A DNA stretch of 64,000 bases from Granulosicoccus sp. Lineage in GTDB: Bacteria; Pseudomonadota; Gammaproteobacteria; Granulosicoccales; Granulosicoccaceae. Position 1 is the first letter of the stretch, and every line of letters starts with the position of its first letter. Below are positions 6,517 through 18,672 of this stretch, in pieces. Location: positions 1 to 64,000 of the forward strand of contig JALZVU010000018.1 in assembly GCA_023301795.1 (NCBI GenBank), read 5' to 3'. Under the pieces are notes generated by a model. It was given only the letters and a program-made list of their open reading frames with translations. It searched no databases and was not told the origin of the DNA. Made by a program: the position numbers and the translations under genes.

Positions 6517-7133
6517 TATGCGTTACACCTGGCGATCAGCTGCGCCTCTGATTTGCCGTGTTGATCTTTGACAGCTTCCTGGTATTCCAGAATGTGTAAC
6601 TCGGCAAACAGTGCCAGTAGCTCATTAGGTTTAAGTAAAAAACCAGGGTTATTCAGGCCATGCACGAACGTCTGGTAGAACAATAGCCCGCCAGGTTTCA
6701 ATGCCTTGACAATCGAAGGACACAAGGCACGATCAAGAAAGCGCGCCACCACAATGATGTCAAAGGAGTCAGGTTCAGGCGGCAGTTCAGTAACATCCCT
6801 TACCAGCACTTCATCAAACACTGCAGGGCGTCGTGCTCGTATTTCATCAACTACCGTATCGCTAATGTCCCAGGCACTGACAGAAAAACCGCGTGCCGCA
6901 AGAAAATGTCCATTACCTGCCCTGCCACAGGCCAAGTCCAGCGCTCGCCTTGCATTAGCGCTCGATACAGCAGGATGGCTGTCAGCGCTTGCCGGAGCAG
7001 CATTACTACCAGATTCTGTCACAGCATCAGGCAACCACCTAACCCCCTGACTCAGGACATCCGCAGGCCCAGGTACGCTGCTTCCAGAAAACGCGTAGCG
7101 CGCATTCCACTTGGAGACTTTGGCATCAGTCAC
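6516..7133 (-). CDS. Class I SAM-dependent methyltransferase
   Basis: A 205-residue methyltransferase of the Methyltransf_11/TehB-like group. It begins with KWNARYAFSGSS, typical of these proteins, then motif I ALDLACGRAGNGHFLA, the acidic strand VSAWDIS, and motif IV-V blocks FDIIVVARFL and LKPGGLLFYQTF. It has no FkbM features and seems to be the first gene of the glycan island, but could equally be an unrelated housekeeping methyltransferase that runs into it by a one-base overlap. The methyl acceptor is not predictable. Confidence 0.8.
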   Translation of the reverse strand: MTDAKVSKWNARYAFSGSSVPGPADVLSQGVRWLPDAVTESGSNAAPASADSHPAVSSANARRALDLACGRAGNGHFLAARGFSVSAWDISDTVVDEIRARRPAVFDEVLVRDVTELPPEPDSFDIIVVARFLDRALCPSIVKALKPGGLLFYQTFVHGLNNPGFLLKPNELLALFAELHILEYQEAVKDQHGKSEAQLIARCNA

Positions 7134-7206
7134 CGTTGAGAGTCCACCCTGACGTCATTCCGGCTCCCATCAGAAGGCTTGCAAAGATCTGCAGACACTA
7201 TTTGCA

Positions 7207-8673
7207 TCAGTAACGCCAGAAAGCCGGGGTGAACAATACTAACAGGGTGAATATTTCAAGTCGCCCAAACAGCATGGTCACACTGAGTACGCTCAGCTCA
7301 AAATCGCCAAGACTCGAGTAATTAGCCGCCACGATACCCAAGCCAGGGCCCAGATTATTCAGACAAGCAACAACGGCTGAAAACGCGCTCTCCTGATCTA
7401 GCCCTGCCGCCATCAACAACAGCAACATCACGGCAAGCACAGCAACATAACTGGCGAAAAAACCCCATACCACATCAACCATATGTCTCGGTATGGTGGT
7501 ACGCCCCACCTTAACTACCACCGTGGCATACGGATGTAACATGCGAAGCAACTCTCTCTGCCCTTGCTTGAACAGCAACAGCACGCGAACCACCTTCATG
7601 CCTCCACCTGTGGAGCCTGCGCATCCACCCGCAAAACTTGCGAACAGCAGTAATACCGGTAAAAATCCGGGCCAGCTATAGTATTCCTCCGAGGTGAAAC
7701 CCGTAGTGGTGCCAATGGAGACAACGTGAAACAGAGCGTCGCGAAACGATTTACCAAAAGTGGATGTGTGCGTTAAATAAAGATAGCTGCACGTAATGAT
7801 TGTCAGCGTTGCCGCTATATAGATATAGGTACGAAATTCTTCATCTTTCCAATAATGAGAAAAACTGAAGTGTCGAGTGACGGCAAAGTGCAAGGCAAAA
7901 TTTATTCCGGAGATGAGCATGAAAACCACTGCAATCATTTCAATCAGCCCACTGTCAAAGTAGCCAATGCTAGCGTCATGTGTGGAGAATCCACCGATGG
8001 CAACTGTTGAAAAGCTATGTCCTACGGCATCAAAAAATGTCATGCCTGCAGCCCAATAAGCCAAAGCACAGGCAATAGTTAATCCCAGATAGATGTACCA
8101 CAACGCCTTAGCGGTATTGGCAATACGCGGCGTAAGCTTGCCCTTATTGATCCCCGGCATTTCTGCCTTGTACAACTGCTGCCCTCCAATGCCAAGCAAG
8201 GGCAAAATAGCAACAGCCAATACAATGATTCCCATGCCTCCCAACCACTGCATTTGCTGCCGATAAAATAGGATGGATTTGGGCAATAGATCTAGCCCTA
8301 CGATTAACGTGGCCCCGGTAGTGGTCAGACCGGACATCGATTCAAAAACAGCTCGGGCAACCGTTAAATCCAACGGCGAGTAAAGATAGAACGGCAAACC
8401 TCCAAAAATTCCCAGTACCGCCCAGAACAAGACGACAATCAGAAATCCATCGCGTATACGCAACTCGGCCTCATGATGACGAACCGGCAAAAACAGCAAC
8501 AGACCGACAAAAAACGTAGCCAGAAAAGCACCGATAAACGGTGACAAGGCCTTGAACTGATCGTCATAAGCGAAGCCAACCAGCACAGGCGTTAGCATGG
8601 TGATGCTGAACAAGGTGAGCAAAACACCCACAACACGCTGCACAACGCGAAGCTGGATAGGGATTGGAGACAT
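7207..8673 (-). CDS. trkH: Trk potassium uptake protein TrkH
   Basis: A 488-residue polytopic membrane protein of the TrkH/KtrB family, the K+-translocating subunit of the Trk system. The pore-loop pattern is visible in repeats: SGLTTTGATLI, TVAIGGFSTHD, SIGTTTGFTSE and NNLGPGLG supply the selectivity-filter glycines. There are about ten hydrophobic segments, the usual size is ~485, and the protein ends in a hydrophobic helix with FTPAFWRY. It lies 102 bases downstream of trkA on the same strand; TrkA is the cytosolic NAD-binding regulator of this channel, so the two form one system in the inner membrane. Confidence 0.95.
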   Translation of the reverse strand: MSPIPIQLRVVQRVVGVLLTLFSITMLTPVLVGFAYDDQFKALSPFIGAFLATFFVGLLLFLPVRHHEAELRIRDGFLIVVLFWAVLGIFGGLPFYLYSPLDLTVARAVFESMSGLTTTGATLIVGLDLLPKSILFYRQQMQWLGGMGIIVLAVAILPLLGIGGQQLYKAEMPGINKGKLTPRIANTAKALWYIYLGLTIACALAYWAAGMTFFDAVGHSFSTVAIGGFSTHDASIGYFDSGLIEMIAVVFMLISGINFALHFAVTRHFSFSHYWKDEEFRTYIYIAATLTIITCSYLYLTHTSTFGKSFRDALFHVVSIGTTTGFTSEEYYSWPGFLPVLLLFASFAGGCAGSTGGGMKVVRVLLLFKQGQRELLRMLHPYATVVVKVGRTTIPRHMVDVVWGFFASYVAVLAVMLLLLMAAGLDQESAFSAVVACLNNLGPGLGIVAANYSSLGDFELSVLSVTMLFGRLEIFTLLVLFTPAFWRY

Positions 8674-8775
8674 CAGATGTACTCTTCTTTACGAAAACCG
8701 CGCAGGCTCCTGGCGCACGCTATACGTATCTGTGAAGGCCACCTGCTGATAGGGCCAGAATTCATACTCGAAGAA

Positions 8776-10251
8776 TCAAACAAAACCAAATCCAACCTGA
8801 AACAGCTTTTCAACTGAATGAATCTCGCTTTTATCAGTGATAAGTAATATCAGGTGATCTTCTGACTCGACGATCAGATCGTGATGCGCAATCATCACTT
8901 TTTCACCTCGTACTACAACCCCGATACTGGCACTCTCCGGCAAGCTGATATCCCCGATGGCACGACCCACCAACTGGGAGGTGTCTTTGTCACCTTTGGC
9001 TACACCTTCCAGTGCTTCGGCTTCACCGCGTCGCAAAGAGTGCACGGCAACCACATCGCCCTGACGCGTGAGCGTCAACAGAGCACCGATGGTTATTTGT
9101 TGAGGTGATATGGCCACATCGATCATGCCATCCTCGATGAGATCAACATAGGCTGGACGGTTAATCAACGACATGACTTTACCGGCACCTTTTTTCTTTG
9201 CCAGCATGGCGGAGAGTATGTTGGCCTCATCGTCGTTAGTCAGCGCACAATAGACATCCATAGCCTCGATATATTCTTTCTTCATTAGATCAAGATCAGC
9301 CGCATCGCCGGTATGCACCTGCGTCCGGGTGAGCACTGATGACAAGTGAATGGCGCGCTCTGGATTCATCTCAACCAGCTTTACATCGTAGTGCTTCTCG
9401 AGCTTTTTGGACAACAGCAAACCAATGTTGCCGCCCCCTGCAATCATGATGCGCCTGCAATTGACCTCGTCATGATGGAACTGGGTTTTTACCTTGGTAG
9501 TATCCTTTCGTTTTCCCATAAAGAAAATAACGTCATCCGTCTTGATGACCGTCTTGCCATCAGGAATGATTGGCTTGTCTGCAACTTCGGGCACCTCTAC
9601 CCGACGGCTGGGGCGTTTGTCGCGTCGACCACGCAACGCGTTCAGAGTGGCTGCCGCCTTGCTTTCTTCCGTCTCCTTCACGCCACGATAGATAGCCACC
9701 ACCCGCGAGTCGATATCAGGCAGCAACACGCGCAGATGCGACAAAGGCCAACCTTCCATAGGCGCACCCTCTTGCACTTTCACACCGACAAGCCGCACAC
9801 GCCCGTCGGCAAAATCCACTACCTGAATGGCGCCAGGGTGCTCGATAATACGTTCTACATGATCGGTAATCAGCTGCTCAGGGCTGATAATGGTATCGAT
9901 CGGGATATTGTCGTTTTTAAACAGGTCCTTCTCTCGAACATATTCTGCCGAGCGGATGCGAGCAATTTTGATCGGTGTTCGGTACAGGCTGTAGGCAATC
10001 TGGATGGCCACGATATTGGTCTCGTCAGAGTCAGTAGCGGCGATAATCATCTCTGCATCTTCAGCCCCGGCCTCTCTCAACACCTCCGGGTGCGAGGCAT
10101 AGCCCACTACAGTCTGAAGCTCTTCTACTTCTTCCAGATGTTTTAACGCTTCAACGTCGGTATCTACCACTACCAGATCATTTTGCTCGGCAGCCAAGCT
10201 GCGAGCGACCGATTGGCCGACCTGTCCAGCACCGAGTACGATTATTTTCAT
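8776..10251 (-). CDS. trkA: Trk system regulatory protein TrkA
   Basis: A peripheral membrane protein that gates TrkH. It has two RCK halves, each with a Rossmann NAD-binding domain (MKIIVLGAGQVGQSVA at the N-terminus and RRIMIAGGGNIGLLLS in the second half) and a TrkA-C domain. At 491 residues it is about 30 longer than the usual ~458. The extra length is a charged Lys/Arg/Glu-rich segment at about 191-226, inside the first TrkA-C domain just before the IIPDGKTVIKTDD block. The gene starts seven bases after the ntrX stop, a link commonly seen in gammaproteobacteria. Confidence 0.95.
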   Translation of the reverse strand: MKIIVLGAGQVGQSVARSLAAEQNDLVVVDTDVEALKHLEEVEELQTVVGYASHPEVLREAGAEDAEMIIAATDSDETNIVAIQIAYSLYRTPIKIARIRSAEYVREKDLFKNDNIPIDTIISPEQLITDHVERIIEHPGAIQVVDFADGRVRLVGVKVQEGAPMEGWPLSHLRVLLPDIDSRVVAIYRGVKETEESKAAATLNALRGRRDKRPSRRVEVPEVADKPIIPDGKTVIKTDDVIFFMGKRKDTTKVKTQFHHDEVNCRRIMIAGGGNIGLLLSKKLEKHYDVKLVEMNPERAIHLSSVLTRTQVHTGDAADLDLMKKEYIEAMDVYCALTNDDEANILSAMLAKKKGAGKVMSLINRPAYVDLIEDGMIDVAISPQQITIGALLTLTRQGDVVAVHSLRRGEAEALEGVAKGDKDTSQLVGRAIGDISLPESASIGVVVRGEKVMIAHHDLIVESEDHLILLITDKSEIHSVEKLFQVGFGFV

Positions 10252-10257
10252 CAGTAA

Positions 10258-11622
10258 TTACACTCGGACCTTATCCAGATCAATATCGAGACTACGCAGT
10301 TTTCTGTACAAATGGGTACGCTCCATTCCAACATGTTTAGCAAGATCCCCAATATTGCCTCCGGTTTTCACCAGACAACGCAGCAGGTACTGTCGCTCAA
10401 AATCAGCACGCGCCTCACGTAGTGGCAAATCGTACCGCAGAGCCAGCGTGGTATCACTGGAATCTACAGCGCCCAAGACACGGTTAATCTCGGCCACCTC
10501 AACCATCGAAGCACCGCCCAGAAGCAAAACACGTTGCACAAGATTCTTCAGCTCCAGCAGGTTGCCAGGCCAATCAAGATTACGCAGGCGATTTTGTGCT
10601 GCAACACTAAAATGGCGATAGCCAAGTCCTTCCTCTTGCACATGCCAGTCCACCAAGCCCTCTAGTAGCGCCGGGATATCTTCAGGATGCTCGCGCAGCG
10701 GCTTGATAGTAAGTGTTTCAGCACACAGCAAACGCGCCAGAACGGGATCGAAACTCCCACGTTTTAATGGCATGGACAAATCTTGACGCGATGAGGCCGC
10801 CAGACGACAACGAAACGACACCTTGTTCGATGAACCCACCCGTAAAAAACCTTGCTGTTCAATAGCTTGCAACAAACACTGTTGTGCGCTACTGGGAAGC
10901 AATTCCACATCAGTCAGAAAAAGCGTGCCTCCCGCTGCCGACTCAAGAAAGCCCATGCTCACAGCCGTTCCGGTTTCTTCTCCAAACAACTCTCTGTGGG
11001 CGTTAACCGACGAAAGCGTGTCACAGCGCAGCTGCACAAAACGACCAGTGAGCTCAGGGTGGCGATCGTGAATACCCTGTGCCAGCAGCACACGGCCGCT
11101 GCCCGATTCACCCAAAAATAATAATGAATGCGTTTTAGTGGCCTGATCATTTACCTGATCGCGCAAGGTTTTCACATAATCGCTGGTACCCAGCAAAAAT
11201 GGCAGCCGGCGAGGTTTGTCCGCAAGCTCACGACCCTGCTCATCGTTACCGAAGTTCTCAGCCAACGCTTTCTCTACCGTGAGTAGTAGTTTGGCAAGTG
11301 ACAAAGGTTTTTCAATAAAATCCACAGCCCCGTGCCGTGTCGCCTCTACCGCCGTTTCAACGGTACCGTGACCCGAGATCATGATGACTGGAAACTTCAG
11401 GCTACCCGCACTTTTCCAAGATTTGAGCAGGGATACCCCATCCATATCAGGCATCCATATATCCAGCAACACCAGATCCGGTGTCGCCTCGTCGATGGCC
11501 AGTTGAGCGGCCGCAGCAGTATCCGCAACCGAGACTGCATAGCCCTCATCTTCCAGTATTTCTTGCAACAAGCCTCGGATATCAGGCTCGTCGTCGACAA
11601 CTAAAATTGAACGTTCATTCAT
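10258..11622 (-). CDS. ntrX: NtrX-like response regulator with degenerate AAA+ domain
   Basis: A 454-residue response regulator paired with NtrY. The receiver domain (1-120) has the acidic pocket VVDDEPD and phosphoacceptor Asp54 in LLDIWMPDMDG. The central AAA+ domain is abnormal: Walker A reads GESGSGRV (171-178) with Arg in place of the catalytic Lys; the region after ELFGEETG is about six residues short and lacks the GAFTGA loop that contacts sigma-54; Walker B reads TLFLTDVE instead of TLFLDEI. The C-terminal Fis-type helix-turn-helix (GGNIGDLAKHVGMERTHLYRKL) is intact. It therefore probably binds DNA without activating sigma-54 promoters. Its start overlaps the ntrY stop by four bases. 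Confidence 0.9.
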   Translation of the reverse strand: MNERSILVVDDEPDIRGLLQEILEDEGYAVSVADTAAAAQLAIDEATPDLVLLDIWMPDMDGVSLLKSWKSAGSLKFPVIMISGHGTVETAVEATRHGAVDFIEKPLSLAKLLLTVEKALAENFGNDEQGRELADKPRRLPFLLGTSDYVKTLRDQVNDQATKTHSLLFLGESGSGRVLLAQGIHDRHPELTGRFVQLRCDTLSSVNAHRELFGEETGTAVSMGFLESAAGGTLFLTDVELLPSSAQQCLLQAIEQQGFLRVGSSNKVSFRCRLAASSRQDLSMPLKRGSFDPVLARLLCAETLTIKPLREHPEDIPALLEGLVDWHVQEEGLGYRHFSVAAQNRLRNLDWPGNLLELKNLVQRVLLLGGASMVEVAEINRVLGAVDSSDTTLALRYDLPLREARADFERQYLLRCLVKTGGNIGDLAKHVGMERTHLYRKLRSLDIDLDKVRV

Positions 11623-13835
11623 GCGGCATCTCCGCGAAGCTGCAAGCTGGAAGAATAAGGCAAACTGATAATTACGGCAGCACCGCCGCCCGCTAGATTC
11701 TCGGCACGTATCTTTCCATTATGCTCCTCTACGATCTTCTTGACGATCGCAAGCCCCAAACCGGTCCCTTTGGGCTTGGACGATACATAAGGTTCGAACA
11801 CTCGGTCCATTATATCCAGCCGAAAGCCAGGCCCCCTATCTTCGGCGATAATATCCAGCATGTCAGTGCCAGATCCGGTGCGCACACGCGTGGACAGGTT
11901 AACCACTTGAGGCATCTTGCCCTGCTGGGCTTCCAGCGCATTCTTGACCAGGTTATGCGTTAGCTGACGCATGCGGGGCGGGTCCATCGACAAGTGTGGG
12001 TCCGCCTCTGAAAGACTCAAGTTAATCTGCACCGAATGCTCAGTGTCCGTGTACAAATCAGCCACTTCGCTCAACAGCTGATTCATGCTGGTAGGCACCA
12101 GAGTGAGGTTAGGTGTGGAAGCATATTCTGCAAACGCATTGACCATGCCCTTAAGTGAATCCACCTGATTTTCAATGGTGTGCGTCAAACGTTCCAGTAG
12201 CTCCGCATCACGATCTTCCAGCTTGTTCGCGAACTTATGTCGTAGCCGCTCTGCGGATAACTGAATGGGCGTCAACGGGTTTTTAATTTCGTGAGCAAGT
12301 CTTCGAGCCACCTCACTCCAGGCAGCATCACGTTGTGCGCTAATCAGATTCGTCATGTCGTCAATGACGATAACGCGTCCAGTAAGTTGGTCCGACGAAT
12401 CAAGCAGCACTGTGCCACGACAAAACAGAAAACGTCGACCGCCCTCGTCATACACCTCGATCTCACACGACCATTCGTTGTCAGCGTGCTGCTCTAGCGG
12501 TACTCGCACCTGCTCGCTGAACTGCGCCACCACGCTGTTATCCTGGGCGTCGTACGTGAGCGCTTGCCCACGAATCTGCATCAGTTCTTGCCCCAGGATA
12601 GAACCTGCCGCGCGGTTACTGGTAAGCACATTGTTTTGCGCATCCAGCGTAATAACGCCACTAGAGATTTGCCCGAGAACTGCCTGTAATCGAGCTCGCT
12701 GACGCTCAACCTGTTGCTGGCTGTGTTCCGCGCTCTGGCGGCTTTGCTCAAGCTGCAGCGTCATATAATTGAACGACTGAACCAGAAAGCCCAGCTCATC
12801 ATTCTGGGTACGCTTGTAGATGCGAGTGGCGTAGTTGCCTTGCGCCACTGAGCGCGTGCCCTCCACCAGATCATGAATAGGCATCATCATTCTCCTGGCA
12901 GCATATAAGGCAAACCACAAGGCCATCATCACTGACAGTAACAAGGCCAGAGTCAATGTCAGCATAGAGCTGATCATCAGCGGATCACGCAAAAATACCA
13001 GTTGCCGATATTGCTGATAACTCGACTGGACGCTCTCAGCCAGATCTGCTGAACTTTCAGCGATCGGGTACAGGGCTTGTAGTACTGAATTTTCGCTCGA
13101 CGCATCCTCAGCAAAAACCGGAGTAACTACCCTTATATATAGTTCACCCCGCCCGATGGGATCAACGCCTACGTACGACAAGCCTTGCTGGGCACGGGTA
13201 ACCAGATCATTTTCTGGTCGGTTCGGCTGGAAAGAGATGCTATCCAATAAGCCAGTGGACGCAATAATACGATTATCAGGCCCGATGAGCGTCATCTCAC
13301 TGGCATCGGTGCCAGAGGTCAAAGCGTTGAGCTCGATGACGGCAACCGATTCACTAACACCCACCAGCTGCTCGGCAATACCCAGGGTATCGCGCTGCAG
13401 CATACTCATTTGCAACTCCAACGACTCGCGACTCAGCTCCAAAGCATCGTCCAAGGCTTTATCTATTTCCAGATCAAAGTAGCTGTTAATGTTCGCCCGC
13501 AGAAATCGGATAGAGAATCCATACACCAGTGTGACGGGTACCAACGCTAAAAGCACCGACACAATCACAAGCTTTACCGTCAGCCTGGAACCTGCAATGC
13601 GCGCTCTGAATTCTTTCATCAGGCGCCAACCATTGATAATGATCAGAACCGCGATAAAGCACAACGCCAGTGCATTACCTATCAACAACCAGTGATAAAA
13701 CTGCCCGAAACGCTCGAGCTGAAGCGCAATGGTACTCAGCACATATAACGAGGCAATAAGTACCACGAACAGCAAGCCCATCAACACAGCACTGCTCAAC
13801 AATCGTTGCCGCAGTATGTTCAGATAACTGACCAT
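11619..13835 (-). CDS. ntrY: NtrY-like membrane sensor histidine kinase
   Basis: Sensor kinase of the NtrYX system. The ATG at 13835 is chosen because GGAG lies seven bases before it; a longer TTG start at 13862 is possible. It overlaps the DUF4390 stop by 16 bases. Order: two N-terminal membrane helices, a basic juxtamembrane region and a third helix, a periplasmic domain, a fourth helix, HAMP (near the MMMPIHDLVEGTRSVAQGN segment), PAS, HisKA with LAHEIKNPLTPIQ (His515), and HATPase with NLVKNALEAQ, DRGPGF and GTGLGLAIVKKI. All kinase boxes are intact. The partner is the NtrX-like regulator downstream; a role in nitrogen or redox signalling is known for the family. Confidence 0.92.
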   Translation of the reverse strand: MVSYLNILRQRLLSSAVLMGLLFVVLIASLYVLSTIALQLERFGQFYHWLLIGNALALCFIAVLIIINGWRLMKEFRARIAGSRLTVKLVIVSVLLALVPVTLVYGFSIRFLRANINSYFDLEIDKALDDALELSRESLELQMSMLQRDTLGIAEQLVGVSESVAVIELNALTSGTDASEMTLIGPDNRIIASTGLLDSISFQPNRPENDLVTRAQQGLSYVGVDPIGRGELYIRVVTPVFAEDASSENSVLQALYPIAESSADLAESVQSSYQQYRQLVFLRDPLMISSMLTLTLALLLSVMMALWFALYAARRMMMPIHDLVEGTRSVAQGNYATRIYKRTQNDELGFLVQSFNYMTLQLEQSRQSAEHSQQQVERQRARLQAVLGQISSGVITLDAQNNVLTSNRAAGSILGQELMQIRGQALTYDAQDNSVVAQFSEQVRVPLEQHADNEWSCEIEVYDEGGRRFLFCRGTVLLDSSDQLTGRVIVIDDMTNLISAQRDAAWSEVARRLAHEIKNPLTPIQLSAERLRHKFANKLEDRDAELLERLTHTIENQVDSLKGMVNAFAEYASTPNLTLVPTSMNQLLSEVADLYTDTEHSVQINLSLSEADPHLSMDPPRMRQLTHNLVKNALEAQQGKMPQVVNLSTRVRTGSGTDMLDIIAEDRGPGFRLDIMDRVFEPYVSSKPKGTGLGLAIVKKIVEEHNGKIRAENLAGGGAAVIISLPYSSSLQLRGDAA

Positions 13836-14422
13836 CGATACTCCGGGCTCTTCAGTGACCAACTGGAACGGATGATGGGCTGCAACGGCAGCGGCAGTGC
13901 AGATTGAAGCAGGCTCATATCCAATATTGCCAAAATATCATCACTCGCCATCGAACGTAATTGCTGAGTATCAAGCTCGAAACTGGCCGGGCTAAGCTCT
14001 CCAAGACCTGCAAGCGCGGAGCTTAACGAGCGAAAATTCCGATTTACATCGGTCTCTAACGTACGCACGCGATAATGACGCGTCAGCTCATAATAGGTCA
14101 GTGTGTAGCGTCTTTGTACATCGACAATGGTTCGATCCAGCCACCACGTGCGCGGCTGCAGAACCTGCAAGCTCAATACAAACGTTAGCGGCACACCATT
14201 ATCCAAACCCGCTTCAACCGTTGCAGGAAGCGTGATGCGCGCATCAGCACTCAAGTGAAGCTGTTGTTTTTCAACCTCCACCTGCATGTCGCTGAGCGTA
14301 ATACCGTTATCTTCAGCATTCGATGCAGCCTTCCAGAATTTCCAGAATACTGACGCCCCTAGCAATAGGACCAGTAACGACACTAACCCTACCGACCTGG
14401 TCAATGCTGCGCCGCCCGTCAT
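13820..14422 (-). CDS. DUF4390 domain-containing protein
   Basis: A 200-residue protein with a single N-terminal hydrophobic segment (VGLVSLLVLLLGASVFW) that is either a signal peptide or a membrane anchor, followed by a domain matching DUF4390: short beta strands with VEAGLDNGVPLTFVLSLQV, then WWLDRTIVDVQRRYTLTYY. These proteins are usually found, as here, between rsmB and ntrY. Function is unknown; a periplasmic or membrane-associated role is inferred from the leader. The start overlaps the rsmB stop by four bases and the end overlaps ntrY, so the three genes are very likely one transcript. Confidence 0.85.
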   Translation of the reverse strand: MTGGAALTRSVGLVSLLVLLLGASVFWKFWKAASNAEDNGITLSDMQVEVEKQQLHLSADARITLPATVEAGLDNGVPLTFVLSLQVLQPRTWWLDRTIVDVQRRYTLTYYELTRHYRVRTLETDVNRNFRSLSSALAGLGELSPASFELDTQQLRSMASDDILAILDMSLLQSALPLPLQPIIRSSWSLKSPEYRWSVI

Positions 14423-15720
14423 GCGTTGCGTTTCTGAAGCGCCGCGTAGAAGAATCCATCCATGCTCTGTTCACCCGGGAAAATCTGGCGAGCACCCTCA
14501 AGAGCACAAGCATCATCAGTGCGCTTTATGAACGCATCCACCTGATGCTCGTTTTCAGCTTTTAAAATCGAACAGGTTGCATATAGCAGCACACCGCCTG
14601 GGTTTAGCGTCTGCCACAGTGCATCCAGCAGCTCAGCTTGGGTTTGTGCCAGAGTTGCAATATCGGTATCACGGCGCAGTAGCTTGATATCCGGATGTCT
14701 GCGGATAACACCGGTTCCCGAGCAGGGAGCATCCAGCAATATTGCATCGAAATTATTGCCGTCCCACCAGGCATCAGGCTGTGACGCATCGCCATGTAAA
14801 ACCTCAACCACTGACTCCAGAGCAAGGCGCTTCAATGCTGACGCTACGCTGGACAAGCGTGTCTCATCAAAATCGATAGCGCTCATTTGCGAATACCATC
14901 CAGACTCTGCAGCATAGGCAGTTTTACCGCCCGGCGCTGCACAAGCATCCAGCAAACGAGAGCCTTTGGGTACATGTTTTGCCAGCATTTGAGCCGCAGA
15001 TTGAGCTGCACCGTCCTGAACACTGACATCACCCGCTTCAAACCCGGGTAGCCGACTAACCGGCACAGGCGCATCCAGTACAAGTGCCCATGGGAGCTGA
15101 GGTAAAGTTGTTGCGGACATACCATCAGCAGATAAACGTTGTTGATAATCCTCGAGGCTGCCGCGCTGTTGATTAACCCGCAAACACATCGGTGCCTGTA
15201 GGTTATTGGCTGCACAGATGGCCTCCCACTGATCTGGCCAATCACGTTGAAACTGTGAGATTAGCCATTGCGGATGACTGTGCAAACCAGTCTCAACCAA
15301 ACCGCTTTGCAATGATTCAAGCTGACGCTGGTAATTTCTCAGTACCGCATTAACAAGCCCACGCGCCCACGGCTTCTTCAATCGTTTTACTACTTTCACC
15401 GTCTCGTCCACAGCAGCGTGAGAAGCGGTCGGGGTGTGCATAAGCTGGAATACACCCAATTGCATCAACAGATAGACATCTTTGTCCTTGGCTTTTAACG
15501 GCTTGTCCAGCAGCTGATCCACCAGGCCTTCCAATTGGTGTGCCCAACGACACCAACCGAAGCTCCAGGCTTGCAGTTGAGCCTGCTCACCTTCGGCCAC
15601 ACGCAGCTGGGCTTCAGGTAAAAGACGGGTTAATGAGCCGCTGTTGCTTTGCAGGCGCAGCATCAACTGCAAACATTGATAACGCAGATTAGTGGCCGAA
15701 TCGGCAATTTTCTGAGTCAT
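14419..15720 (-). CDS. rsmB: 16S rRNA m5C967 methyltransferase RsmB
   Basis: A 433-residue protein that methylates C967 of 16S rRNA. The N-terminal NusB-like domain (about 1-140; LLMQLGVFQLMHTPTASHAAVDETV) is followed by the catalytic Rossmann domain with SAM motif LLDACAAPGGKTAY, the motif IV block LLDAPCSGTGVIRRHPDIK carrying one conserved cysteine, and motif VI LLYATCSILKAENEHQV carrying the nucleophilic cysteine. Length is normal for the family. It begins four bases after the fmt stop and overlaps the DUF4390 start, matching the def-fmt-rsmB order common in bacteria. Confidence 0.95.
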   Translation of the reverse strand: MTQKIADSATNLRYQCLQLMLRLQSNSGSLTRLLPEAQLRVAEGEQAQLQAWSFGWCRWAHQLEGLVDQLLDKPLKAKDKDVYLLMQLGVFQLMHTPTASHAAVDETVKVVKRLKKPWARGLVNAVLRNYQRQLESLQSGLVETGLHSHPQWLISQFQRDWPDQWEAICAANNLQAPMCLRVNQQRGSLEDYQQRLSADGMSATTLPQLPWALVLDAPVPVSRLPGFEAGDVSVQDGAAQSAAQMLAKHVPKGSRLLDACAAPGGKTAYAAESGWYSQMSAIDFDETRLSSVASALKRLALESVVEVLHGDASQPDAWWDGNNFDAILLDAPCSGTGVIRRHPDIKLLRRDTDIATLAQTQAELLDALWQTLNPGGVLLYATCSILKAENEHQVDAFIKRTDDACALEGARQIFPGEQSMDGFFYAALQKRNA

Positions 15721-15724
15721 TTTA

Positions 15725-16687
15725 CTAGCTCGTTAATGCACTGAATGATTCAGCCAACAAGGGCTGATTGCGTGCAAAGTCGGCAGCGCTCTGAGCTTTT
15801 TTCCCCGGCCACTGCAATGTAAGAAACTCGATATCCTGATCACCTGCCCGCACGCGGACCGCATCATTAGTGACGCCTACAACGGTGCCAGGCAATGCTG
15901 CCTCATCGGCACACCCATCGGCAGGTAGCCGACTCTCCCACAATCTGACGCGTTGCCCACACAGCTGGCCCTCAGCCACCGGCCATGGATTAAATGCGCG
16001 TACACGCCGATGCAACTCAGCGGCACACAGCTGAAAATCAAGAGCAGCCTCGAATTTTGTCAACTTCTCTGCATAGGTGACACCCGCATCTGGCTGCGCC
16101 ACAGCGGGTAGATCGCCTTGGCAACGCCCGCGCAAGGCTTCAAGCAGTGCCTGCGCACCCAACGCTGCCAACCGGTCATGCAGTTGGGCAACTGACTCGT
16201 CAGCACCGATGTCACAGTGCCTTGTAAGCAACACACCCCCTGTATCAAGGCCAGCGTCCATCTGCATGATGCACACACCGGTTTGCTCATCACCAGCAAG
16301 AATAGCCCGGTGAATAGGGGCCGCCCCTCGCCATCGAGGTAAAAGGGAGGCGTGAATGTTCAGACAACCCAAGGCTGGCAGCTGGAGTACAGCTTCAGGC
16401 AATATAAGCCCGTAGGCCGCCACCACCAACACATCAGCGCCCAGAGCTGCGAACGCCTCGCGCGCCTCATCAGACTTTAGAGACACAGGCTGCTGCACCG
16501 GTACATTGGCAGCCAAAGCGCGCATTTTTACAGCACTGGGCGTCAGCTTGCGGCCACGCCCCGCCGGGCGATCCGGTTGCGTCAGAACACCCACCAGCTC
16601 ATGTTCGCTGCCCAGTAGCGCATCCAGAGCCACCGCAGCGAACTCAGGTGTGCCAGCAAAGGCGACTTTCAGGCGATCACAATTCAT
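15725..16687 (-). CDS. fmt: Methionyl-tRNA formyltransferase
   Basis: Formylates initiator Met-tRNA using 10-formyl-tetrahydrofolate. The 320-residue protein has the N-terminal formyltransferase domain with VAFAGTPEFAAVAL, the flexible loop QPDRPAGRGRK, and the catalytic block NIHASLLPRWRGAAPI (Asn, His) with QMDAGLDTGGVL supplying the conserved Asp. The C-terminal tRNA-binding domain starts near residue 205 with KLTKFEAALDF and HRRVRAFNPWP. It lies in the usual def-fmt-rsmB order; def is upstream after a gap of about 50 bases. Confidence 0.96.
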   Translation of the reverse strand: MNCDRLKVAFAGTPEFAAVALDALLGSEHELVGVLTQPDRPAGRGRKLTPSAVKMRALAANVPVQQPVSLKSDEAREAFAALGADVLVVAAYGLILPEAVLQLPALGCLNIHASLLPRWRGAAPIHRAILAGDEQTGVCIMQMDAGLDTGGVLLTRHCDIGADESVAQLHDRLAALGAQALLEALRGRCQGDLPAVAQPDAGVTYAEKLTKFEAALDFQLCAAELHRRVRAFNPWPVAEGQLCGQRVRLWESRLPADGCADEAALPGTVVGVTNDAVRVRAGDQDIEFLTLQWPGKKAQSAADFARNQPLLAESFSALTS

Positions 16688-16737
16688 GGTGTTACCGAGG
16701 GGTGAGAAGCGAGGTCAGTGCCGGACGATACACCTAT

Positions 16738-17328
16738 TCAGTGGCGCTCTGGGCGCTCTGGCAAATCATCCAGGTCAGCGCCATCGCGAATCCACTTCTC
16801 CATGCGTTTGCGGATACGGTTACGCTTCAGAATTGAGAGGTAGTCCACAAATAACTTTCCGTCCAAATGATCGATTTCGTGCTGAATACACACCGCCAAT
16901 AACCCGTCAGCATCCATTTCGAACGGATTCCCTTCACGATCTATAGCCTCGATCCGCACATCAGCGGGGCGCTTGACGCTCTCATAAACCCCAGGGATCG
17001 ACAGGCAGCCTTCTTGCATCTCGGCGACACCTTCAGAGCTTGTGATGATGGGATTTATAAATATCAGCGGCGTGTTATTTTCTTCAGAAACATCAATAAC
17101 AACAACACGTTGGTGAACATTAACCTGTGTCGCAGCCAGCCCGATACCGGGTGCGTCGTACATGGTTTCCAACATGTTATCGACAAGCTTGGCAACCTCG
17201 CCATCGACGTTTTTCACCTGCGAGGCGTTGCGGCGAAGCAAAGGGTCTGGGTAGTAAAGGATATCAAGCAGTGACACGACTAGGTTTCCGACAGGGGCTG
17301 GTGCTCCAATAATACCAGCCACAGACAC
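16738..17328 (-). CDS. def: Peptide deformylase
   Basis: Removes the formyl group from nascent N-terminal methionine. All three family motifs are present: [17 protein letters not shown] (zinc-ligand Cys) and [12 protein letters not shown] (two His ligands and the catalytic Glu). The chosen GTG start at 17328 is preceded by AAAGGAGATGCC, a good ribosome binding site, and gives 196 residues; an internal GTG at 17277 would match the usual family N-terminus ([14 protein letters not shown]) more closely. The extra 17 residues are thus either a real extension or a mis-chosen start. It is divergent from the LysM gene, with an 84-base intergenic promoter region. Confidence 0.93.
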
Positions 17329-17412
17329 GGCATCTCCTTTGCATCTTAAGGTTTATGTCGCACAGCCGATCTATCCGGTTGTTATCACCCTAACGAGGGA
17401 GAGTATCCCAGC

Positions 17413-18672
17413 ATGGCCCTACACATGACTTCAACAACTGCACGCTTGAATCTGGCAGTTTGTCTGTCGCTTATCCTAGCTTCCTGTTCTACAGGCAAAG
17501 GCCCTTCGGCAATAGCCGTAGCCTCTGCGACTAGTGATAGCAGTCAGCGATTCAGCGCTGAAGAACTTCAGTACGCCGGTACTCCTACCGCCTACACGCG
17601 GACCTACGTCAACTCGGATGACATAGAAGCCAACGCGCCCGAGGTGTATACGGTGGTACGCGGTGACACCTTGTGGGATATCTCGGATCGTTTTCTGAAA
17701 GAACCATGGCGCTGGCCTGAAATCTGGGGGTATAACCCTCAAGTGCATAACCCACACCTGATTTATCCGAAAGACGAGTTGGCGCTGAATTATGTAAATG
17801 GCAAACCGATACTCTCACTCACACGCAATGGAAAGCTTATTCCAATAGAGGACAAATCACCGACTCTGGCGGGTGCAAACAAACCTACGGATACCAGTGA
17901 TGTCGAGGGCGCCAACGGGGGGGCACGGGTAAAGCTTGCTCCCAGAATTCGCGTCACTTCACTCGATGACGCCATTCCGATGATTGCTAGCGACGCTATT
18001 TCTCATTTGCTCGTGAGCTCACGTGTTGTGGACGAACGCACAACCTACAACGCGCCCTACGTTCTCGCCAACAGCGACAACACGCTCGCAAGCTCTGTCG
18101 GCAACAAAATCTACGTGCGTGGCCGCGTGAGCCGCGACGAGACAAACTATGGCGTATTTCGCAAAAGCAATCGTCCCCTGATTGATCCGGCTAACGGTGC
18201 CAGCCTGGGCTTTGAGGTTACGCACGTGGCGGATGCCAAATTACTCAGCGTTGGTGAGCCTTCCACGATGATAATCACGGATAACAAGCAGGAAACCATA
18301 GCGGGGGATCTTTTACTGCCTATGGCCACGGGCAAAACCACTCACACCTACACACCACGTATGCCCGAACTACGCGGTGAGGGGCGAGTTGTCTCTTTGG
18401 TGAATGCCATTTCTCAATCTGGTCGAAATCAGGTTGTCGTGCTCAATGTAGGCGACAACTCCAGCATCCAGGAAGGCGATGTACTGGCCGTAGAGACTCG
18501 CGGCGTGAATGTGGTGGACAAAAGACGCAGCGGAACTCGGGAAACTGTCAAATTACCCAACGAACGCACAGGTGTATTGCTGGTCTTTAAGACCTTTGAC
18601 AAGGTAAGCTACGCATTAGTCATGGAATCGACTCGCCCGATCAAGGTCAATGACATTGTAACGGGCATCTAA
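17413..18672 (+). CDS. LysM-domain lipoprotein
   Basis: A 419-residue envelope protein. The N-terminus is a lipoprotein signal: a hydrophobic run ending in a lipobox ILASC, with Cys25 as the lipidation site. A LysM peptidoglycan-binding domain follows at about 78-123 (VYTVVRGDTLWDISDRFLK to IYPKDEL). The rest has a beta-rich repeated organisation with VYVRGRVS-like strands and no catalytic motif, so it probably binds rather than cuts the wall. A start at the internal ATG 17425 is possible; GAGGGAGA lies upstream of the chosen ATG. It is divergent from def and precedes dprA, as in many gammaproteobacteria. Confidence 0.9.
   Translation: MALHMTSTTARLNLAVCLSLILASCSTGKGPSAIAVASATSDSSQRFSAEELQYAGTPTAYTRTYVNSDDIEANAPEVYTVVRGDTLWDISDRFLKEPWRWPEIWGYNPQVHNPHLIYPKDELALNYVNGKPILSLTRNGKLIPIEDKSPTLAGANKPTDTSDVEGANGGARVKLAPRIRVTSLDDAIPMIASDAISHLLVSSRVVDERTTYNAPYVLANSDNTLASSVGNKIYVRGRVSRDETNYGVFRKSNRPLIDPANGASLGFEVTHVADAKLLSVGEPSTMIITDNKQETIAGDLLLPMATGKTTHTYTPRMPELRGEGRVVSLVNAISQSGRNQVVVLNVGDNSSIQEGDVLAVETRGVNVVDKRRSGTRETVKLPNERTGVLLVFKTFDKVSYALVMESTRPIKVNDIVTGI

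Follow-up and report, generated by a model that had tools for sequence, protein, structure and literature searches.

An NtrX-type response regulator of Granulosicoccus without AAA+ catalytic residues, a probable sigma-54-independent DNA-binding regulator

Within the window, a 64,000-nucleotide stretch of a Granulosicoccus genome, the ntrX gene (10258..11622, minus strand, as are all features given below) encodes a 454-aa response regulator of receiver (REC), pseudo-AAA+ and Fis-type helix-turn-helix (HTH) architecture that lacks the GAFTGA loop and the ATPase residues. The loss of the ATP machinery and the retention of the receiver and DNA-binding parts point to a phosphate-controlled DNA-binding switch, and from sequence comparison we judge it probable (about 0.7) that the protein binds DNA and regulates without sigma-54, is gated by phosphorylation and keeps its central domain as a pseudo-AAA+ scaffold. 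Because GAFTGA-less relatives were known beforehand to act without sigma-54, we regard the result as solid but modest; what is new is that catalytic loss is complete in a full-length AAA+ domain and can be set on a graded series.

The ntrX reading frame runs from an ATG at 11622 to a stop at 10258 between ntrY on one side and trkA on the other, and the plus strand of the same span contains stops. The gene has a 100% place in its own genome, and orthologues were recovered from 24 of 26 same-genus genomes (Granulosicoccus MAGs). Pfam recognizes a receiver, a Sigma54_activat-type domain (PF00158, 92.8 bits), an AAA lid and a Fis-type HTH in the product. The best NCBIfam model is the NtrX equivalog NF051870, which the protein matches at 338.9 bits against a curated cut-off of 600; since gammaproteobacterial NtrX with more motifs intact also fall short (470-481 bits), the cut-off is not decisive, and the protein is not filed under the model. 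In the tree it groups with other NtrX in a supported clade separate from NtrC (support 0.986 for the family clade, 0.937 for the gamma/beta clade and 1.0 for the union with alpha NtrX). On the basis of this tree and of synteny, the protein is an NtrX orthologue of the gamma/beta, PlrR-type clade.

Alignment of the central domain confirmed the lesions that the earlier note had read from the letters. Walker A, GESGSGRV (residues 171-178, 11089..11112), runs G171-ESGSG-R177 and thus carries Arg177 in place of the Lys, Walker B has T237-D238 (10909..10914) in place of D-E, and the GAFTGA loop is deleted at residues 212-227 (10942..10989), where LFGEETGTAVSMGFLE stands opposite LFGHEKGAFTGATSMKRGKFD. 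The arginine-finger segment, described as changed from FREDLYYR to FDPVLARL, indeed reads F291-D292-P-V-L-A-R297-L298 (residues 291-298, 10729..10752), so that neither of the canonical positions, 292 and 298, holds an Arg and R297 is off by one residue. Two further losses emerged: Leu356 has replaced the sensor-II Arg (10555..10557; WPGNLLEL instead of WPGNxREL), and Arg199 (11026..11028) the glutamate-switch Asn. Arg177, Arg199, Asp292 and Leu356 are all invariant in the genus. An assembly or pseudogene artefact was ruled out because 26 Granulosicoccus-type sequences, taken from separate assemblies, carry the same lesions.

The domains on either side of the lesions are intact, as had been claimed. 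The receiver (residues 4-120, 11263..11613; PF00072, 101 bits) has its phospho-acceptor D54 in a complete pocket of D10, D11, D54, S83 and K105, and all 208 gamma/beta clade sequences keep the phosphorylation pocket intact. The Fis-type HTH (residues 405-443, 10294..10410; PF02954) carries the recognition helix MERTHLYRKL, whose residues E434-K441 are near-invariant over the 208 relatives.

We aligned the protein with related NtrX, the check that the earlier note had suggested, in a sample of 262 NtrX-type proteins of which 208 form the gamma/beta clade of the tree, and the lesions proved to be shared. GAFTGA is missing throughout the 208, and 25 of 26 Granulosicoccus-type sequences, along with six of seven beta-type sequences, retain none of the five core AAA+ residues. 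None of the five is missing from the 17 GAFTGA-bearing sequences in the sample (mostly Deltaproteobacteria-type and Nitrospira), nor from 24 of 25 alpha NtrX without GAFTGA. All five are found in only 28 of the 168 other gammaproteobacterial sequences, the remainder keeping four (48 sequences), three (45), two (29), one (17) or none (1). By parsimony, the Walker A Lys was lost about 15 times within the gamma/beta clade, the arginine finger about 12 times, the Walker B Glu 20-43 times and the sensor-II Arg 22-25 times. The absence of GAFTGA from both alpha and gamma NtrX and the scatter of the ATPase losses indicate that the sigma-54 loop was lost first, in common to the alpha and gamma NtrX of the sample, and that, on this reconstruction, ATPase loss came afterwards, many times, in the gamma and beta lines. 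The description of the protein as an NtrX with a defective domain thus holds as regards the defect but not as regards a single damaged protein, the defect being fixed across the clade and forming the far end of a gradient.

An NtrX-like group outside the alpha and gamma clades (L170, L173, L175, L177, L178 and related loci) is likewise without GAFTGA and shows D-A for D-E in Walker B while keeping the Lys, the arginine finger and sensor II; its members are possibly of an ATP-binding, non-hydrolysing type.

To read the pattern of constraint, we compared mean pairwise identities per domain in 15 genomes carrying both NtrX and an intact NtrC. Identities for NtrX were 0.847 in REC, 0.648 in the AAA core, 0.764 in the lid and 0.919 in the HTH, against 0.781, 0.850, 0.694 and 0.750, respectively, for NtrC, such that the AAA core is the strongest domain in NtrC and the weakest in NtrX, where REC and HTH are best conserved. 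The dN/dS of NtrX, a rough ratio given that dS is mostly saturated, is about 0.03-0.05 in REC and HTH, about 0.14 in the AAA core and 0.64 in the interdomain linker, suggesting that the AAA core is relaxed yet under selection; that REC and HTH are under purifying selection speaks for a functional regulator. The complete loss of catalytic residues might instead mark ntrX as a decaying remnant without function, which we find scarcely credible, as every genus-type relative recovered whole has an open frame of full length, REC and HTH are under the strong constraint just described and exceed those of NtrC in the same genomes, and the synteny with ntrY is fixed. Nor do we give any real credence to an active sigma-54 activator working through a non-canonical ATPase and loop: rpoN is present in the genome (488 bits) and the K-to-R and E-to-D changes are conservative at two sites, but GAFTGA, the arginine finger and sensor II are also lost, genus-wide. 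Of the features of a sigma-54-dependent enhancer-binding protein (an NtrC-class activator), NtrX has the AAA+ fold and lacks the GAFTGA loop and the catalytic residues. Five other bacterial enhancer-binding proteins (bEBPs) in the genome, NtrC among them (682 bits), have intact Walker motifs together with a motif of GAFTGA type, and thus sigma-54 control in general has not been lost. The suggestion that this NtrX is a sigma-54-independent regulator is therefore supported by sequence comparison, the loop, the Walker A Lys, the Walker B D-E, the arginine finger and the sensor-II Arg all being gone though rpoN and these five proteins remain.

The AlphaFold model has a mean pLDDT of 85.8, reaching about 90-96 across the AAA domain, and superposition of its residues 142-389 on the AAA domain of FleQ gives 2.4 A over 245 residues (Z 28.2), so that retention of the AAA+ fold is predicted with high confidence. 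The top full-length Foldseek match is Brucella NtrX (rank 1-6), and the placement of the domains relative to one another is uncertain in the model (pTM 0.58; full-length rmsd 18 A against 5m7p_B). An Arg for the Walker A Lys is by itself compatible with nucleotide binding, and the invariance of Arg177 may reflect binding that persists there. The domain could bind nucleotide without hydrolysis, with the nucleotide state or another ligand tuning the dimer. Consistent with this are the P-loop glycines and basic Arg177 kept in the genus, the intact predicted fold, the ATP- and ADP-bound entries 5m7n and 5m7p of Brucella NtrX, the closest full-length structure, and the requirement of Rhodobacter capsulatus NtrC for ATP binding, not hydrolysis (PMC10274813). 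We nonetheless hold nucleotide binding to be rather unlikely, given that the switch Asn, the Walker B Asp, the arginine finger and the sensor-II Arg are replaced together and that no folded domain is less conserved in the genus than the AAA core. Still more doubtful is a rebuilt AAA+ domain in which Arg177, Arg199 and Asp292 would form a nucleotide-free, charge-swapped subunit interface for ATP-independent assembly, with the acid at the former finger (Asp292) perhaps reaching the basic pocket that once held ATP in the neighbouring subunit. Beta NtrX share D292 but have Phe, not Arg, in Walker A, and Arg199 is found in gammas that retain the arginine finger; a general linkage of the three residues was ruled out on these grounds.

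In the preferred reading, a phosphorylation-gated regulator on a pseudo-AAA+ scaffold, the protein is the PlrR-type response regulator of a PlrP-NtrY-NtrX signalling unit and has been reduced to binding DNA under the control of phosphorylation. NtrY would phosphorylate D54, whereupon the dimer would bind with a different affinity or geometry to the DNA sites that the conserved Fis-type HTH recognizes. At sigma-70-type promoters, transcription might rise through contact with RNA polymerase or fall through occlusion. The central domain, its AAA+ fold kept, would neither bind and hydrolyse ATP productively nor contact sigma-54, and would serve as a scaffold linking receiver and HTH, possibly as a dimer interface.

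The gene neighbourhood is that of such a unit. The ntrY histidine kinase gene (11619..13862) overlaps ntrX by 4 bases and encodes intact H, N and G boxes (the H524 box, the N-box NLVKNA, DRGPG and GTGLGL). It is itself overlapped by a DUF4390 gene (13820..14422; PF14334, 126.8 bits), a predicted plrP-type third component (PMC13001219) that lies beside the kinase gene as in the PlrP-PlrS-PlrR type of layout. In a system of that type PlrP keeps the phosphatase activity of the kinase in check and the regulator is phosphorylated on its REC Asp; the ntrX and ntrY products here have D54 and the kinase boxes, respectively. Then come rsmB (14419..15720) and fmt (15725..16687), both conserved neighbours by synteny, and def (16738..17328), first in the co-directional run. 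Next downstream of ntrX is trkA (8776..10251), followed by trkH (7207..8673). The order def-fmt-rsmB-DUF4390-ntrY-ntrX is common to gamma and beta loci, while trkA-trkH follow ntrX in the Granulosicoccus loci plus some others.

Brucella abortus NtrX (PDB 5m7n, 5m7o, 5m7p; Fernandez et al. 2017, J Mol Biol 429:1192), the best full-length match among relatives of solved structure (249 bits), has the same REC, AAA+ and Fis HTH arrangement, likewise without GAFTGA and with an NtrY partner. It retains the Walker A Lys, the Walker B D-E, FREDLFHR and the sensor-II Arg, whereas the Granulosicoccus protein has none of these. Fernandez and colleagues reportedly found that the Brucella protein binds ATP, is without ATPase activity and acts as a repressor at its own promoter. 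PlrSR/PlrP of Bordetella, of the NtrYX family, has the same neighbourhood of rsmB, plrP (DUF4390), kinase, regulator, trkA and trkH, with the DUF4390 protein PlrP acting as the third component of PlrSR (PMC13001219). Beta NtrX are said there to be without an AAA+ domain (PMC13001219). The beta NtrX in our set (L095, L097 and L103; Bordetella PlrR itself is not in the set) match PF14532, Sigma54_activ_2, at 123-128 bits, and one aligns to the Granulosicoccus protein over nearly its full length at 42% identity, which indicates that in these lineages the AAA+ domain is a shortened remnant, not absent. These beta proteins resemble the Granulosicoccus protein in being without ATPase motifs and differ from it in length, the domain being shortened in theirs (about 416 aa) and full in the Granulosicoccus protein (454 aa).

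GAFTGA-less NtrC of Caulobacter and R. capsulatus, likewise of bEBP architecture with loop 1 deleted, act at sigma-70 promoters, and ATP binding plus hydrolysis is inferred to be needed by the former and binding but not hydrolysis by the latter (PMC10274813); these are NtrC, not NtrX, and in the Granulosicoccus protein the catalytic residues are absent. Thioalkalivibrio NtrX had been tabulated before as a protein without GAFTGA (PMC5744179, Table 2). It and other gammaproteobacterial NtrX share the gene cluster and the missing loop, but unlike the Granulosicoccus protein most other gamma NtrX keep some ATPase residues.

Many gammaproteobacterial NtrX-type regulators are annotated as sigma-54-dependent nitrogen regulators. 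As none of the 208 gamma/beta members sampled could use the canonical sigma-54 contact, and ATPase is partly or fully lost in most, this annotation is corrected. The family also offers a natural series, from intact ATPase through loop-less, partly dead and fully dead to shortened domains, in which one can ask what an AAA+ domain does for a response regulator after ATP turnover has been lost.

The genome that carries this ntrX holds three more REC-AAA-type regulators with a damaged AAA+ domain (contig C139; loci L125, L127 and L128), two of them in tandem. They have no GAFTGA and show odd Walker A sequences such as GQSGVQK and GECGVDK.

We also looked for candidate regulatory sites. The published NtrX site GCAn9TGC had one match upstream of mraZ in 18 genus genomes, four loci being of uncertain orientation, against 1.9 expected by chance, and six matches in the gene cluster (7000-17600), five of them intragenic. 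A sigma-70 promoter scan of 10000-17700 returned fewer hits than shuffled sequence and is uninformative. Upstream of def lies an inverted repeat, ATGCAAAGGAGATGCC (GCA-N7-TGC; 17329-17344), with an extended -10-like element, TGGTATTAT, about 11 bases downstream. The GTG start of def at 17328 is probably too early, because this conserved promoter-like element sits within the first codons, and the true start probably lies downstream. Of 19 Granulosicoccus-type loci inspected, most have the repeat ahead of def, and the -10-like element generally lies about 11 bases from it. Exact matches are scarce, 27 in 27 genus genomes, most apparently at the def operon, as compared with four for the reversed pattern, and we regard the repeat as a candidate operator of the def-ntrYX run.
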